Origin: Flavobacteriaceae bacterium Ga0077528 | GTDB taxonomy: Bacteria > Bacteroidota > Bacteroidia > Flavobacteriales > Flavobacteriaceae | Assembly: GCA_001464475.1 (NCBI GenBank) | Contig: LNDX01000001.1 | Location: forward strand, 434,001-498,000 | Length of the DNA stretch: 64,000 nt | Direction of reading: 5' to 3' | Shown here: positions 25,087 through 28,493 of the stretch, one piece after another | Position numbering within the stretch: position 1 is the stretch's first letter | How the letters are laid out: each line of letters opens with the position of its first letter | The notes under the pieces: generated by a model | What the model saw: the letters and a program-made list of their open reading frames with translations, nothing else | What the model was told of the DNA's origin: nothing | Databases searched by the model: none | Program-made: the position numbers and the translations under genes

Positions 25087-25133
25087 CATTTTAGCATAAA
25101 ATGCTGATTAACAAATTTTTGAGAATACAAAAT

Positions 25134-27470
25134 ATGATTATAAAAAATAAATTAACAGCGTTTCTTTTGGTAGCTTCTTCAGTTGTTTTCGGACAGGAAG
25201 TTGCAACCCAACAAGATTCGATTGTAAAAAAAGAGACAAAAATTTCCTACCTAGATTCAATTAAAGCGACTTTCGTTAATGACGAAATGGCTTCATGTAT
25301 TGATAGTCTTTGGATGAAAGAATTAACCTCTTTAGACGTTTACAGCACACTTCTAGAAGATATAAAAAATATTGATATCGATAAACCTGTTGATTATGAA
25401 TTACCAACAGAATTATTGAAAGAACGTTTAAAGATATTAGACGAAAAATCACCTTTCAATATTGAGTATAACATTGGTTTAGAAAATGTTATTAAGTCAT
25501 TCTTAAAAAACAGAAAAAAAGGATTTGAACGTTTGATGGGAATATCTCAGTTTTATTTTCCAATATTTGAAGAAGCTCTAGCATCACAAAACATCCCATT
25601 AGAAATTAAATATCTTGCTGTTGTTGAATCTGCTTTAAATCCGAGAGCGGTTTCTAGAGTTGGCGCGACAGGTTTGTGGCAATTTATGTATCAAACAGGA
25701 AAACAATATGGTTTGAACATTACTTCTTATGTTGATGAAAGAAGCGATCCACTAAGAGCAAGTCAAGCGGCAACCCAATACATGACCAATATGTACAAAA
25801 TTTTTGGTGATTGGGATTTAGTTTTAGCGTCTTACAATTCTGGTCCAGGAAATGTTGCTAAAGCGATTCGTCGTTCAGGAGGTCAACAAAATTATTGGAA
25901 CATTAGAAAAAATCTTCCAAAAGAAACTCAAGGATATCTTCCAGCTTTTTTAGCAACAATGTATATTTTTGAATATCATAAAGAACATGGAATTGTGCCA
26001 AATAAAGCAGTCGCTAATCATTTTGCTACTGACACAATTTTGATTAAAAAGCACATGACTTTCAAGCAAATTTCAGATTTGTTAGATGTTCCAGTGGCTG
26101 AAATTCAGTTTTTCAATCCTTCGTTTAAGAGAAATGAAATTCCAGCAATTTCAGGTGAAAAAAACTTCTTGAGATTACCAAAAGACAAAATAGCAATTTT
26201 TGCTTCTAACGAAGATAAGGTTTACGCTTATGTAAAATATCAAGCAGATAAAAGAGAGCGTCCTTATGAGCGTCTAGCATCTGTTAAACAAAATGATTCT
26301 ACTAATGTAGCTTTTGCAGAGAGAGAATTTACCACAAGAACCAAATATCATAAAGTAAGGAAAGGAGATAATCTTAGCGAAATAGCCGATAGATATCAAG
26401 TTTCAATTGGTGATATCAAAAAGTGGAATGGATTAAGAAGTAACAAAGCACCTTTGGGAAGAAATCTTAAAATTGTCTCTACAGAAAGAATAGCTTTCAA
26501 AGACAAAAAAGATTCAAAAGCCGATTCAGTTGCAACCAAATTGCCTAAAGTAATTTCTAATGAAAACACCAGCATTGCTTCAAATGAAGTAAAAGCTGAA
26601 AAAGTTTTCAAGACAGAAAAAGTAGTAACTTACAAAGATGTTACTAAATATCATAAAGTTAAAAAAGGTGATGTACTTGGTGAAATTGCCGATAAATATG
26701 AAGTTTCTGTTGCAGACGTTAAAAAATGGAATAAGATAAAAGGAAGCAATATTGGTCTTGGCGATAACCTAAAAATCATCAAAAACGAGAAAGTAGTTAC
26801 AACCGTTAAGAAAGAAGTTAAACAACCATTTGCATCTAAAAAAGAAGAAATAGCAGCAGCTGAACCAAAAATTTCTAAAGCGAAAAAAGAAGAAAAAGTT
26901 GATACAACTTCAAAATCTGAAAACTATTATGTTGTAGCTAAAGGTGATAATCTGAGCGCTATTGCAAGAAAAAATAATATTACAGTTCAAAACATTAAAG
27001 AATGGAATAATTTAATTGATACCAATGTAAAAGTAGGAACGCAATTAATTATTTCAGGTGAAAGTTTAGCAGAAGCTAAAGAGGAATCAATTTCTAAAGG
27101 AGAACTAAAAAATATTGAACACGTAGTTGGTAAAGGTGAATATCTTGGAACTATTGCTAGAAAATATAATACAACAGTTAATGATTTATTAGAATTAAAC
27201 TCGCTTTCAGACACAAATATCAAAGAAGGTGACAAACTAATAGTTGGTAAAGAAGAAATCGTTTCTATAGCTGATAAAAAAGCTAAGAAAAACGATTATG
27301 CAGCCAATCAGAAGAAAGCTAAAGAGAAAATGTACCAAGTAAGAAAAGGAGATTCTTTATTTAGTATTTCTCAAAAATTCCCTGGAGTTACCATTTCAGA
27401 CATTAAAAAATGGAATAATATCAAAGGTGAAAGTATACAACCGGGAATGAAATTAAAAATTAACGGATAA
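25134..27470 (+). CDS. mltD: Membrane-bound lytic murein transglycosylase D with five LysM domains
   Basis: MltD-type enzymes cut the N-acetylmuramyl-N-acetylglucosamine bond of peptidoglycan in the envelope. The 778-residue protein has a signal peptide (MIIKNKLTAFLLVASSVVFGQ) and an SLT domain around residues 140-300. Its catalytic glutamate lies in AVVESALNPRAVSRVGATGLWQF (E165). A degenerate LysM-like stretch near 310-350 is followed by five clear LysM repeats (each opening with a version of YHKVRKGDNLSEIAD or YVVAKGDNLSAIAR). Lys/Glu linkers separate them. The extra LysM copies over E. coli MltD suggest tight cell-wall binding. The hairpin downstream overlaps the next gene's start. Confidence 0.92.
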   Translation: MIIKNKLTAFLLVASSVVFGQEVATQQDSIVKKETKISYLDSIKATFVNDEMASCIDSLWMKELTSLDVYSTLLEDIKNIDIDKPVDYELPTELLKERLKILDEKSPFNIEYNIGLENVIKSFLKNRKKGFERLMGISQFYFPIFEEALASQNIPLEIKYLAVVESALNPRAVSRVGATGLWQFMYQTGKQYGLNITSYVDERSDPLRASQAATQYMTNMYKIFGDWDLVLASYNSGPGNVAKAIRRSGGQQNYWNIRKNLPKETQGYLPAFLATMYIFEYHKEHGIVPNKAVANHFATDTILIKKHMTFKQISDLLDVPVAEIQFFNPSFKRNEIPAISGEKNFLRLPKDKIAIFASNEDKVYAYVKYQADKRERPYERLASVKQNDSTNVAFAEREFTTRTKYHKVRKGDNLSEIADRYQVSIGDIKKWNGLRSNKAPLGRNLKIVSTERIAFKDKKDSKADSVATKLPKVISNENTSIASNEVKAEKVFKTEKVVTYKDVTKYHKVKKGDVLGEIADKYEVSVADVKKWNKIKGSNIGLGDNLKIIKNEKVVTTVKKEVKQPFASKKEEIAAAEPKISKAKKEEKVDTTSKSENYYVVAKGDNLSAIARKNNITVQNIKEWNNLIDTNVKVGTQLIISGESLAEAKEESISKGELKNIEHVVGKGEYLGTIARKYNTTVNDLLELNSLSDTNIKEGDKLIVGKEEIVSIADKKAKKNDYAANQKKAKEKMYQVRKGDSLFSISQKFPGVTISDIKKWNNIKGESIQPGMKLKING

Positions 27471-27492
27471 TACAAAAATCTTACATAAATTT

Positions 27493-27529
27493 GGGCTTTA
27501 TTTCTAATCATGAATAAAGCCCTTTTTTT
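27493..27529 (+). terminator. Terminator-like hairpin containing the next gene's start codon
   Basis: GGGCTTTATT (27493-27502) pairs perfectly with AATAAAGCCC (27513-27522), and seven T follow (27523-27529). The 10-nt loop holds ATG 27510-27512, the start of the DUF4837 gene. The hairpin can end transglycosylase transcripts or, if read through, hide the start codon. Confidence 0.8.
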
Positions 27530-28493
27530 ATTTTCTATTGTAGCTATTTTTCTAACTTCTTGCGATTCTAAAGAGGTTAAAAATACTAGTGAAACTTCTC
27601 GAAAAACCAACGAAGTTGCCGTTATTATCGACGACCAACTTTGGAATGGAGAAATTGGTGATAGCGTGCGAAATAAATTTGCCTCTCCAGTTGTAGGTTT
27701 GCCTCAAGAAGAACCTATTTTTACATTGAATCAATATCCAGTAAAACTACTTGAAGGTTTTATGAGCAATAGTAGAAATATTATTGTGGTTAAAAAAGAA
27801 GCTAAAAGTCAGTTTAGAATTGAAAATAATGAATATGCTAATCCTCAAGTAGTTGTTCATGTTTCAGGCAAAACGGTTCAAGAGATTTTAGATACCATTC
27901 AAGCAAATGATTCGCTTATTATTAGTAGGATAAAAACTTCAGAAATTAAGGTTTTTCAAGATAGAATAAAAAAAGACTCTGTTTTAGATTTCAAAAAAGC
28001 AGTAGAAAAATTCAATATCAAGATTAACATTCCTTCCAAATACCGAATGGTAATGCATGGAAAAAAGTTTATTTGGTTCAAAAAAGACATCACAAGTGGT
28101 AACATGAGTTTGGTTTTTTATCAAGTACCACTTAATAGCATTAAAGACAATGGTAAAGCTGTCAACAGAATAATTCAAATTCGTGATTCTATTGGTAGAA
28201 TTTATATTCACGGAGCTGTTCCAAAAACTAGAATGATTACGGAACCAGCATTTTCACCTTATTTTTCTAAAACCAAAATTTTCAATAGAGAAACATTTGA
28301 AACTAAAGGAAATTGGGAATTACTTCACGAATCAATGAACGGACCATTCATCAATTATGCTATTATTGACAAAACCAACAATAGAATTTTAATAATTGAA
28401 GGATTTTGCTACGCACCATCAAAACAAAAAAGAGATTTAATGTTCGAATTGGAATCCATTATTAAATCGGTTCAGTTTTTAAAAAAGAAATAA
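27510..28493 (+). CDS. DUF4837 family lipoprotein
   Basis: This 327-residue protein has a lipoprotein signal (MNKALFLFSIVAIFLTSCDS), lipobox cysteine at residue 18. The body has beta strands and charged loops, with IIDDQLWNGEIGDSVRNKFASPVVGLPQEEPIF near the N-terminus and a later half holding KYRMVMHGKKFIWFKKDITSG. This is the arrangement of DUF4837, a Bacteroidota-only family of unknown function. The first codons are inside the terminator-like hairpin of the upstream gene. A GNAT gene follows after one base (TAAAATG), so they are cotranscribed. Confidence 0.85.
   Translation: MNKALFLFSIVAIFLTSCDSKEVKNTSETSRKTNEVAVIIDDQLWNGEIGDSVRNKFASPVVGLPQEEPIFTLNQYPVKLLEGFMSNSRNIIVVKKEAKSQFRIENNEYANPQVVVHVSGKTVQEILDTIQANDSLIISRIKTSEIKVFQDRIKKDSVLDFKKAVEKFNIKINIPSKYRMVMHGKKFIWFKKDITSGNMSLVFYQVPLNSIKDNGKAVNRIIQIRDSIGRIYIHGAVPKTRMITEPAFSPYFSKTKIFNRETFETKGNWELLHESMNGPFINYAIIDKTNNRILIIEGFCYAPSKQKRDLMFELESIIKSVQFLKKK

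Follow-up and report, generated by a model that had tools for sequence, protein, structure and literature searches.

In the transposon Tn10/IS10, RNA that reads through into the element folds over the start of the transposase gene and RNA from the inner promoter does not, which shields the element from outside promoters. Terminators and promoters are usually annotated apart, and start codons are annotated as structure-free. Here we describe a stretch of about 45 bp, between an mltD-like gene and a gene for a DUF4837 lipoprotein, that probably nests an intrinsic terminator for mltD, a sigma-A promoter and the translation start of DUF4837, which would make DUF4837 expression largely independent of mltD. 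Judged from sequence, it seems that in many Flavobacterium species this one stretch of 45 bases ends one transcript and starts the next, with the start codon held in a hairpin.

The closest well-described case is gene e of phage T4. The part of PMC3014915 available to us reports that the long early transcripts form a structure over the translation start, that transcripts from the late promoters lack its 5' part and are well translated, and that lysozyme synthesis is reduced about 100-fold by the hairpin. Structure near the start codon lowers translation in F. johnsoniae as well, according to the accessible part of PMC6847099.

Results

The mltD-DUF4837 junction

The features of the junction are collected in Table 1, numbered along the window, by which we mean the whole stretch of 64,000 nucleotides that was analysed. 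The name mltD was taken from a sequence-only reading of the same DNA. The distance from the mltD stop to the ATG of DUF4837 is 39 nt. This ATG is a credible start, because it is the first of its reading frame, it opens an 18-residue lipoprotein signal peptide ending in LTSC, and the 327-aa product matches Pfam DUF4837 (E 3.7e-89); the start proposed in the sequence-only reading thus stands. The protein is identical to one encoded on contig JAAFHW010000001.1 (Flavobacteriia bin36), and its next relatives are from Flavobacterium.

Table 1. Positions of genes and of predicted signals at the mltD-DUF4837 junction
Feature	Position	Strand	Basis or remark
mltD-like gene, SLT transglycosylase domain and five LysM stretches	25101..27470	+	ORF list, Pfam
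Stop codon of mltD-like gene	27468-27470	+	
-7 element TAAATTTG, match to TAnnTTTG (Bacteroidota sigma-A)	27486..27493	+	Sequence; consensus from available parts of PMC6847099 and PMC9723704
Hairpin 5' arm GGGCTTTATT	27493-27502; to 27503 including U·G	+	
Predicted transcription start of DUF4837 mRNA	27498..27499	+	Published spacing and position (sources available in part)
Hairpin loop, holding A and T of the start codon	27504..27511	+	RNAfold
ATG start codon of DUF4837 gene	27510..27512	+	3' edge of hairpin loop
DUF4837 lipoprotein gene, 327 aa, signal peptide MNKALFLFSIVAIFLTSC	27510..28493	+	ORF list, Pfam
Hairpin 3' arm AATAAAGCCC	27513-27522; from 27512 including U·G	+	
T7 tract	27523-27529	+	Sequence
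GNAT acetyltransferase gene, after DUF4837 gene	from 28495		

The hairpin had been noticed in the sequence-only reading, and its coordinates proved exact: a stem of 10 Watson-Crick pairs, four of them G-C, begins 22 nt past the mltD stop codon, spans ATG 27510 and is followed by T7. RNAfold adds an eleventh pair, U·G, between 27503 and 27512. The minimum free energy (MFE) of 27480-27540 is -15.1 kcal/mol, against a shuffle mean of -4.53 (z -4.64), and none of 200 shuffles was as low. That stem and T tract are also coding was likewise correct: the 3' arm and T7 cover codons 2-7. The arm (27512-27522) runs from the G of the ATG through codons 2-4 to the opening base of codon 5, and T7 supplies the remainder of codon 5, all of codon 6 and the first two positions of codon 7. 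A stable stem containing G-C pairs and a T tract directly behind it, T-rich in relatives too, are the features of an intrinsic terminator.

Compared with 368 predicted starts (ATG ORFs of at least 120 aa in 464 kb of the same genome, ATG 27510 included), this start has the second-lowest folding energy for positions -30..+25 (mean -3.25, sd 2.81). The starts ranking lowest and third-lowest look mis-assigned, the third from its translation and the lowest by eye. Looser criteria fail to single out ATG 27510, since 28 of the 368 starts are spanned by 10 or more pairs with a T-rich octamer following, and a generic terminator scan found 7 sites against 7.0 expected; the weight is therefore placed on the strength of the hairpin and on its conservation.

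A genome-wide habit of placing starts within terminators was looked for and not supported. The 464 kb, made up of the window and 400 kb of contig C1, yielded 182 candidates for a hairpin with T tract, of which three, that of DUF4837 included, touch an ORF start. Of the other two, one belongs to an ORF that probably has the wrong start, a typical signal peptide MKKSILIMALALP beginning downstream, and one stands 8 nt before the ATG. TAnnTTTG lies on or near the hairpin in 4 of the 182, which by a rough estimate is not above the expectation from base composition.

Two sites of contig C1 may be recorded. At G000:C1 91334-91366 (L115:11334-11366), promoter and terminator overlap a second time: TATATTTG leads into a hairpin of 15 bp whose tail is T-rich. 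The site lies 22 nt downstream of a 462-aa ORF, and 16 nt separate it from the following lipoprotein-like ORF (MKYLLFLSLFICFSCS), whose start codon is outside the hairpin. On the minus strand, G000:C1 242239-242277 (L123:2239-2277) holds another 15-bp hairpin with T-rich tail between two ORFs. The first ends 24 nt upstream, and the ATG of the second, which has 122 aa, follows after 8 nt; a search of this hairpin for TAnnTTTG was negative.

The promoter element and the predicted transcription start

The last G of TAAATTTG is the first base of the hairpin, and the element stands 16 nt before the start codon. The available part of PMC6847099 counts as probable promoters 241 of 434 candidate -7 elements in F. 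johnsoniae, those at a distance of 4 or 5 nt from the predicted start, and that of PMC9723704 places TAnnTTTG at -12 to -5 in F. psychrophilum. From this spacing and the position of the -7 element, the start of DUF4837 transcription is predicted at 27498-27499, inside the 5' arm. At the -33 position no TTTG was seen, the sequence there being TTAACGG by eye; this motif is treated as non-defining in Flavobacterium, because it is much less evident in F. johnsoniae promoters (PMC6847099, available part).

It follows from such a start that the mRNA of DUF4837 itself would lack GGGCU, and with it the G-C half of the stem. The terminator would thus act only on RNA from upstream, and the full hairpin would be formable only by RNA arriving from mltD. 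The sequence-only reading had offered two options for expression of DUF4837, readthrough or a promoter inside the hairpin. The conserved TAAATTTG overlapping the 5' arm favours the promoter, although the -7 element itself had been missed.

The hairpin might instead be a translational device of the DUF4837 mRNA itself, controlled for instance by heat or a ligand, with transcription starting upstream of the arm. We consider this unlikely: the conserved fold over the start region would suit it, but the conserved TAnnTTTG puts the start inside the arm, a translational switch has no need of a T tract, and the loop varies in length and sequence. A search of Rfam with 27000-28000 at E values up to 1 gave no match, which is neutral in this respect.

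Conservation in Flavobacterium and in other genera

Of 80 contig loci, L036 has no start region; in the remaining 79, mltD and DUF4837 are adjacent in 66 and separated by an insert in 13, counts that refer to these contig loci alone, as the other locus sets come partly from the same genomes. All 66 adjacent core Flavobacterium loci have at least 7 pairs across the start. TAnnTTTG is present within 60 nt in 60 of them, all 60 thus having both features, and the other six carry TAAATTTA or TAAATTAG at the same place. Both features near the start were found in none of the 13 loci with an insert, and TAnnTTTG within 60 nt in none of 30 loci that belong to other genera of the family (the top-scoring 30 of 296 genomes with the family). 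Because the criterion of at least 7 pairs is loose, being reached also by 16 of these best 30 of 296 and by 6 of the 13 separated loci, the contrast between adjacent and other loci rests on both features together.

Among 20 more divergent Flavobacterium loci, 15 have no TAnnTTTG within 60 nt and four have both features, of which L187 and L188 carry the nested element and L174 and L184 look different by eye. Nine of 20 loci of intermediate divergence, partly duplicates of the contig loci, have both. Of 299 genomes of the genus, 99 contain an exact composite pattern and 200 do not, with at most one match per genome; a reversed-pattern control matched in 3 of 299. F. defluvii (L109) is one species with the element. 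Among the composite-pattern matches listed, ATGAATAA stands at the expected place; their coordinates were compared with those of the loci by eye and in a few genomes only.

The inserts of the separated loci are of several kinds. A gene lies between mltD and DUF4837 in L071, L073, L085, L097, L102, L103 and L105, and a remnant in L098; its product is presumably a DUF1080-like protein. In L041, L062, L067 and L075, a short insertion falls between the hairpin arms, leaving TAAATTTG or TAAATTTA on the mltD side, 89-184 nt before the ATG. The insert of L041 seems, by eye, to have inverted copies around ACCAATT/AATTGGT at its ends and a palindrome inside, and is perhaps a small mobile element. In L107 (1600-1953), a separate strong terminator-like hairpin stands behind mltD, and part of the mltD end is then repeated ahead of DUF4837; the 90 nt after mltD fold at -27.8 kcal/mol, much stronger than the nested hairpin. 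In L184, one of the more divergent loci, a hairpin that by eye includes the mltD stop codon and is followed by a T tract precedes a TATTTTTG element and then DUF4837. Four loci (L055, L068, L081 and L106) are titled Bifidobacterium breve, Candidatus Nitrotoga, Lentimicrobium and Klebsiella pneumoniae, respectively. The tree places them among Flavobacterium, and their metagenome bins look misassigned.

Pairing in relatives and compensatory changes

Whether the pairing of the stem is kept in relatives had been raised in the sequence-only reading, and it is kept, with compensatory changes. From 122 loci, 84 had the anchor and 70 were non-redundant, and the alignment (A1) has 62 rows. L055, L059, L064, L072, L076, L190 and L197 were left out as TAAATTTA variants in which the stem is shifted by one base, as were L107, L174 and L203, which have no comparable stem; L039 and L104 were added after the anchor pattern had missed both. 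In these 62 rows the 11 pairs are standard in 96.5% of cells, a percentage raised by dropping the three loci without a comparable stem, and sliding the partners by 1-3 columns lowers it to 38-67%.

Double changes occur at three pairs, in 28 cells against a shuffle mean of 1.1. The second pair changes from G-C to A-U in L104, the third from G-C to A-U in L007, L048 and L188, and the fourth from C-G to U-A in many rows, so that the arms change in step (GGAC/GTCC in L007, L048 and L188, GAGC/GCTC in L104, and GGGC/GCCC versus GGGT/ACCC). Since the sequences are related, row counts are not event counts. On a quick protein tree, in which 36 of 77 inner branches have less than 80% support, the state of the fourth pair changes at least 10 times, but this gives only 2-4 supported independent lineage pairs; in these the two sides of the pair never changed in opposite directions, and the sign test is powerless.

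An inverted repeat over a promoter might also be a DNA operator, bound by a regulator that represses the promoter. This is most improbable, as U·G pairing is frequent (at one pair, in 12 of 62 rows), full-length arms stand a variable 6 to 18 nt apart, and the exact pattern occurs at no more than one place in a genome.

Codons under the arm and the T tract

The third base of codon 4 must pair. Of the 66 adjacent loci, 64 have a fourfold codon at this position, and 61 of these codons end in C, against 21.8 expected from the same genes. Counting all codons, C is the third base in 63 of 66 adjacent and 7 of 13 separated loci, and the fourth residue is Ala or Thr in 62 and 4 of them, respectively. 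This difference speaks for selection on pairing at codon 4. In the adjacent loci, codons 5-7 show little variation (CTT or CAT, then TTT, then TTA or TTT), whereas codons 8-13 vary widely: Leu5 is CTT in 39 of 39 cases (CTT makes up 46% of CTN codons in the same genes), His5 is CAT in 22 of 22 (63%) and Phe6 is TTT in 65 of 65 (77%). At codons 5 and 6 the 13 separated loci are just as uniform, with CTT in 8 of 8 for Leu5 and TTT in 11 of 11 for Phe6, and only codon 4 and, weakly, codon 7 are relaxed in them. For this reason, the T-tract codons alone are no proof of selection for termination. They may have persisted in the separated loci either because the inserts are too recent or because the start of the gene favours such codons.

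These data also bear on the idea that the complementarity is incidental, the 5' arm being kept as promoter and initial transcribed sequence and the 3' arm as signal-peptide code. Each arm does have such another plausible constraint, signal peptides give A-rich and then T-rich codons, the T-tract codons outlast separation, and the two-sided changes amount to few independent events. Nevertheless, the arms co-vary in L007, L048, L188 and L104 and between GGGC/GCCC and GGGT/ACCC, and both the base and the residue at codon 4 differ between adjacent and separated loci as given above. The incidental explanation is disfavoured, and we hold it to be very unlikely.

Predicted folding of the two transcripts

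With terminator, promoter and start codon nested, a polymerase coming from mltD would transcribe both arms, the hairpin would form, and the T tract would release most transcripts at about 27529; in a transcript that read through, the same hairpin would cover the start region and lower initiation. A polymerase starting from the embedded promoter at about 27498 would produce an RNA without GGGCU and without any of the four G-C pairs. This transcript would contain no terminator, its start region would be more open, and DUF4837 would be expressed, probably only from transcripts that begin within the hairpin. We think it likely that the element serves in this way as an insulator, through termination and a partial masking of the start codon on read-through RNA.

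Over 70 loci, the median MFE of the start region is -13.7 kcal/mol for the read-through RNA and -1.4 for the predicted own transcript, and the median unpaired probability of positions -6..+12 is 0.32 and 0.57, respectively. The predicted own transcript of the window folds at about -0.4 kcal/mol. Competition between initiating ribosomes and the hairpin, as suggested in the sequence-only reading, would hence apply to the read-through RNA and not to the own transcript. The effect on the start codon itself is smaller. Although the hairpin covers the start region in the window, the AUG is predicted to be 66% unpaired. The read-through RNA exposes the AUG less than the own RNA does in 49 of 70 rows, and the own RNA predicted for 17 of 70 leaves it less than 10% unpaired. 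Masking would be modest, a weaker layer than termination.

Such modest masking is compatible with selection on the terminator alone, the overlap with promoter and start being a by-product of the 39-nt gap and masking having no role. The stem is conserved together with the T tract, and L184, by eye, solves the same problem with a separate terminator and promoter. Furthermore, space is limited, because genera that lack the hairpin have an equally small gap, with 26-39 nt between the end of the mltD match and the ATG in 22 of the 30 other-genus loci (the best-scoring 30 of 296). On the other hand, an upstream CAT pairs with the ATG in many relatives with long loops and in the TAAATTTA variants, which would be superfluous for a terminator. 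We see selection on the terminator alone as a serious alternative, albeit with a probability somewhat below one half.

Discussion

The nested arrangement of terminator, promoter and start codon may be taken a step further. The 45-bp stretch might be a gate that depends on where transcription began, a two-level insulator in which polymerases from upstream are terminated and their RNA is masked, and those that start inside pass. It would have arisen in core Flavobacterium, in the spacer of an operon, where A-rich and T-rich signal-peptide codons were co-opted as arm and T tract, with RNA structure restricting residue 4, and would have been kept through much of the genus. We advance this fuller account tentatively, giving it close to an even chance. 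Insulation would be incomplete, since termination leaves the polymerase from mltD free to cross the promoter. As for its history, the simplest account has mltD and DUF4837 as an operon of two genes in the ancestor, with the nested element acquired in the spacer within Flavobacterium; the tree method is blind to gain versus loss.

The locus provides a conserved example in which a terminator, a promoter and a start codon are predicted to be held in one sequence, and the adjacent and separated loci form a comparative case of RNA structure restricting the first residues of a protein. A prediction that puts mltD and DUF4837 into one operon on account of the 39-nt gap would fail in core Flavobacterium, and for other genera it would probably be correct. 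Moreover, signal-peptide codons, for Lys or Asn and then for Phe or Leu in AT-rich genomes, suggest themselves as ready-made halves of terminators.

Our literature search found no paper on DUF4837. The mltD-DUF4837 locus is undescribed in the literature covered by these incomplete searches, including the available parts of PMC6847099, PMC9723704, PMC3014915 and PMC8450116; nor did these incomplete searches find there a bacterial promoter inside a terminator arm with a start codon in the loop.

Several known systems share parts of this design. An ordinary intergenic intrinsic terminator has the same G-C-based stem, direct T tract and position downstream of a stop codon. There, however, the next promoter and gene follow downstream, whereas here the promoter overlaps the 5' arm and coding begins in the loop. 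The same TAnnTTTG, here TAAATTTG, is found in the Flavobacterium sigma-A promoter, from which the locus differs in its predicted start within a terminator arm; the predicted 5' leader of DUF4837 would be about 11-12 nt, compared with a published median of 24 in F. psychrophilum. Tn10/IS10 is a mobile element with terminal repeats, while DUF4837 is a host gene in which the 3' arm is signal-peptide code.

The logic of a start within a hairpin, with long versus own transcripts, would be shared with gene e (lysozyme), soc, 49 and I-TevI of phage T4 (PMC3014915, available part). In that part of the source, no terminator is described for the T4 hairpins, which serve a temporal switch through late promoters; DUF4837, by contrast, lies on the chromosome, and its predicted promoter is of the main-sigma type and accompanied by a T tract. 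Given this added T tract, termination is expected to act first, and masking second and more weakly. Taken together, the DUF4837 element may be said to work like that of T4 gene e, an analogy that carries no claim of membership or common ancestry.
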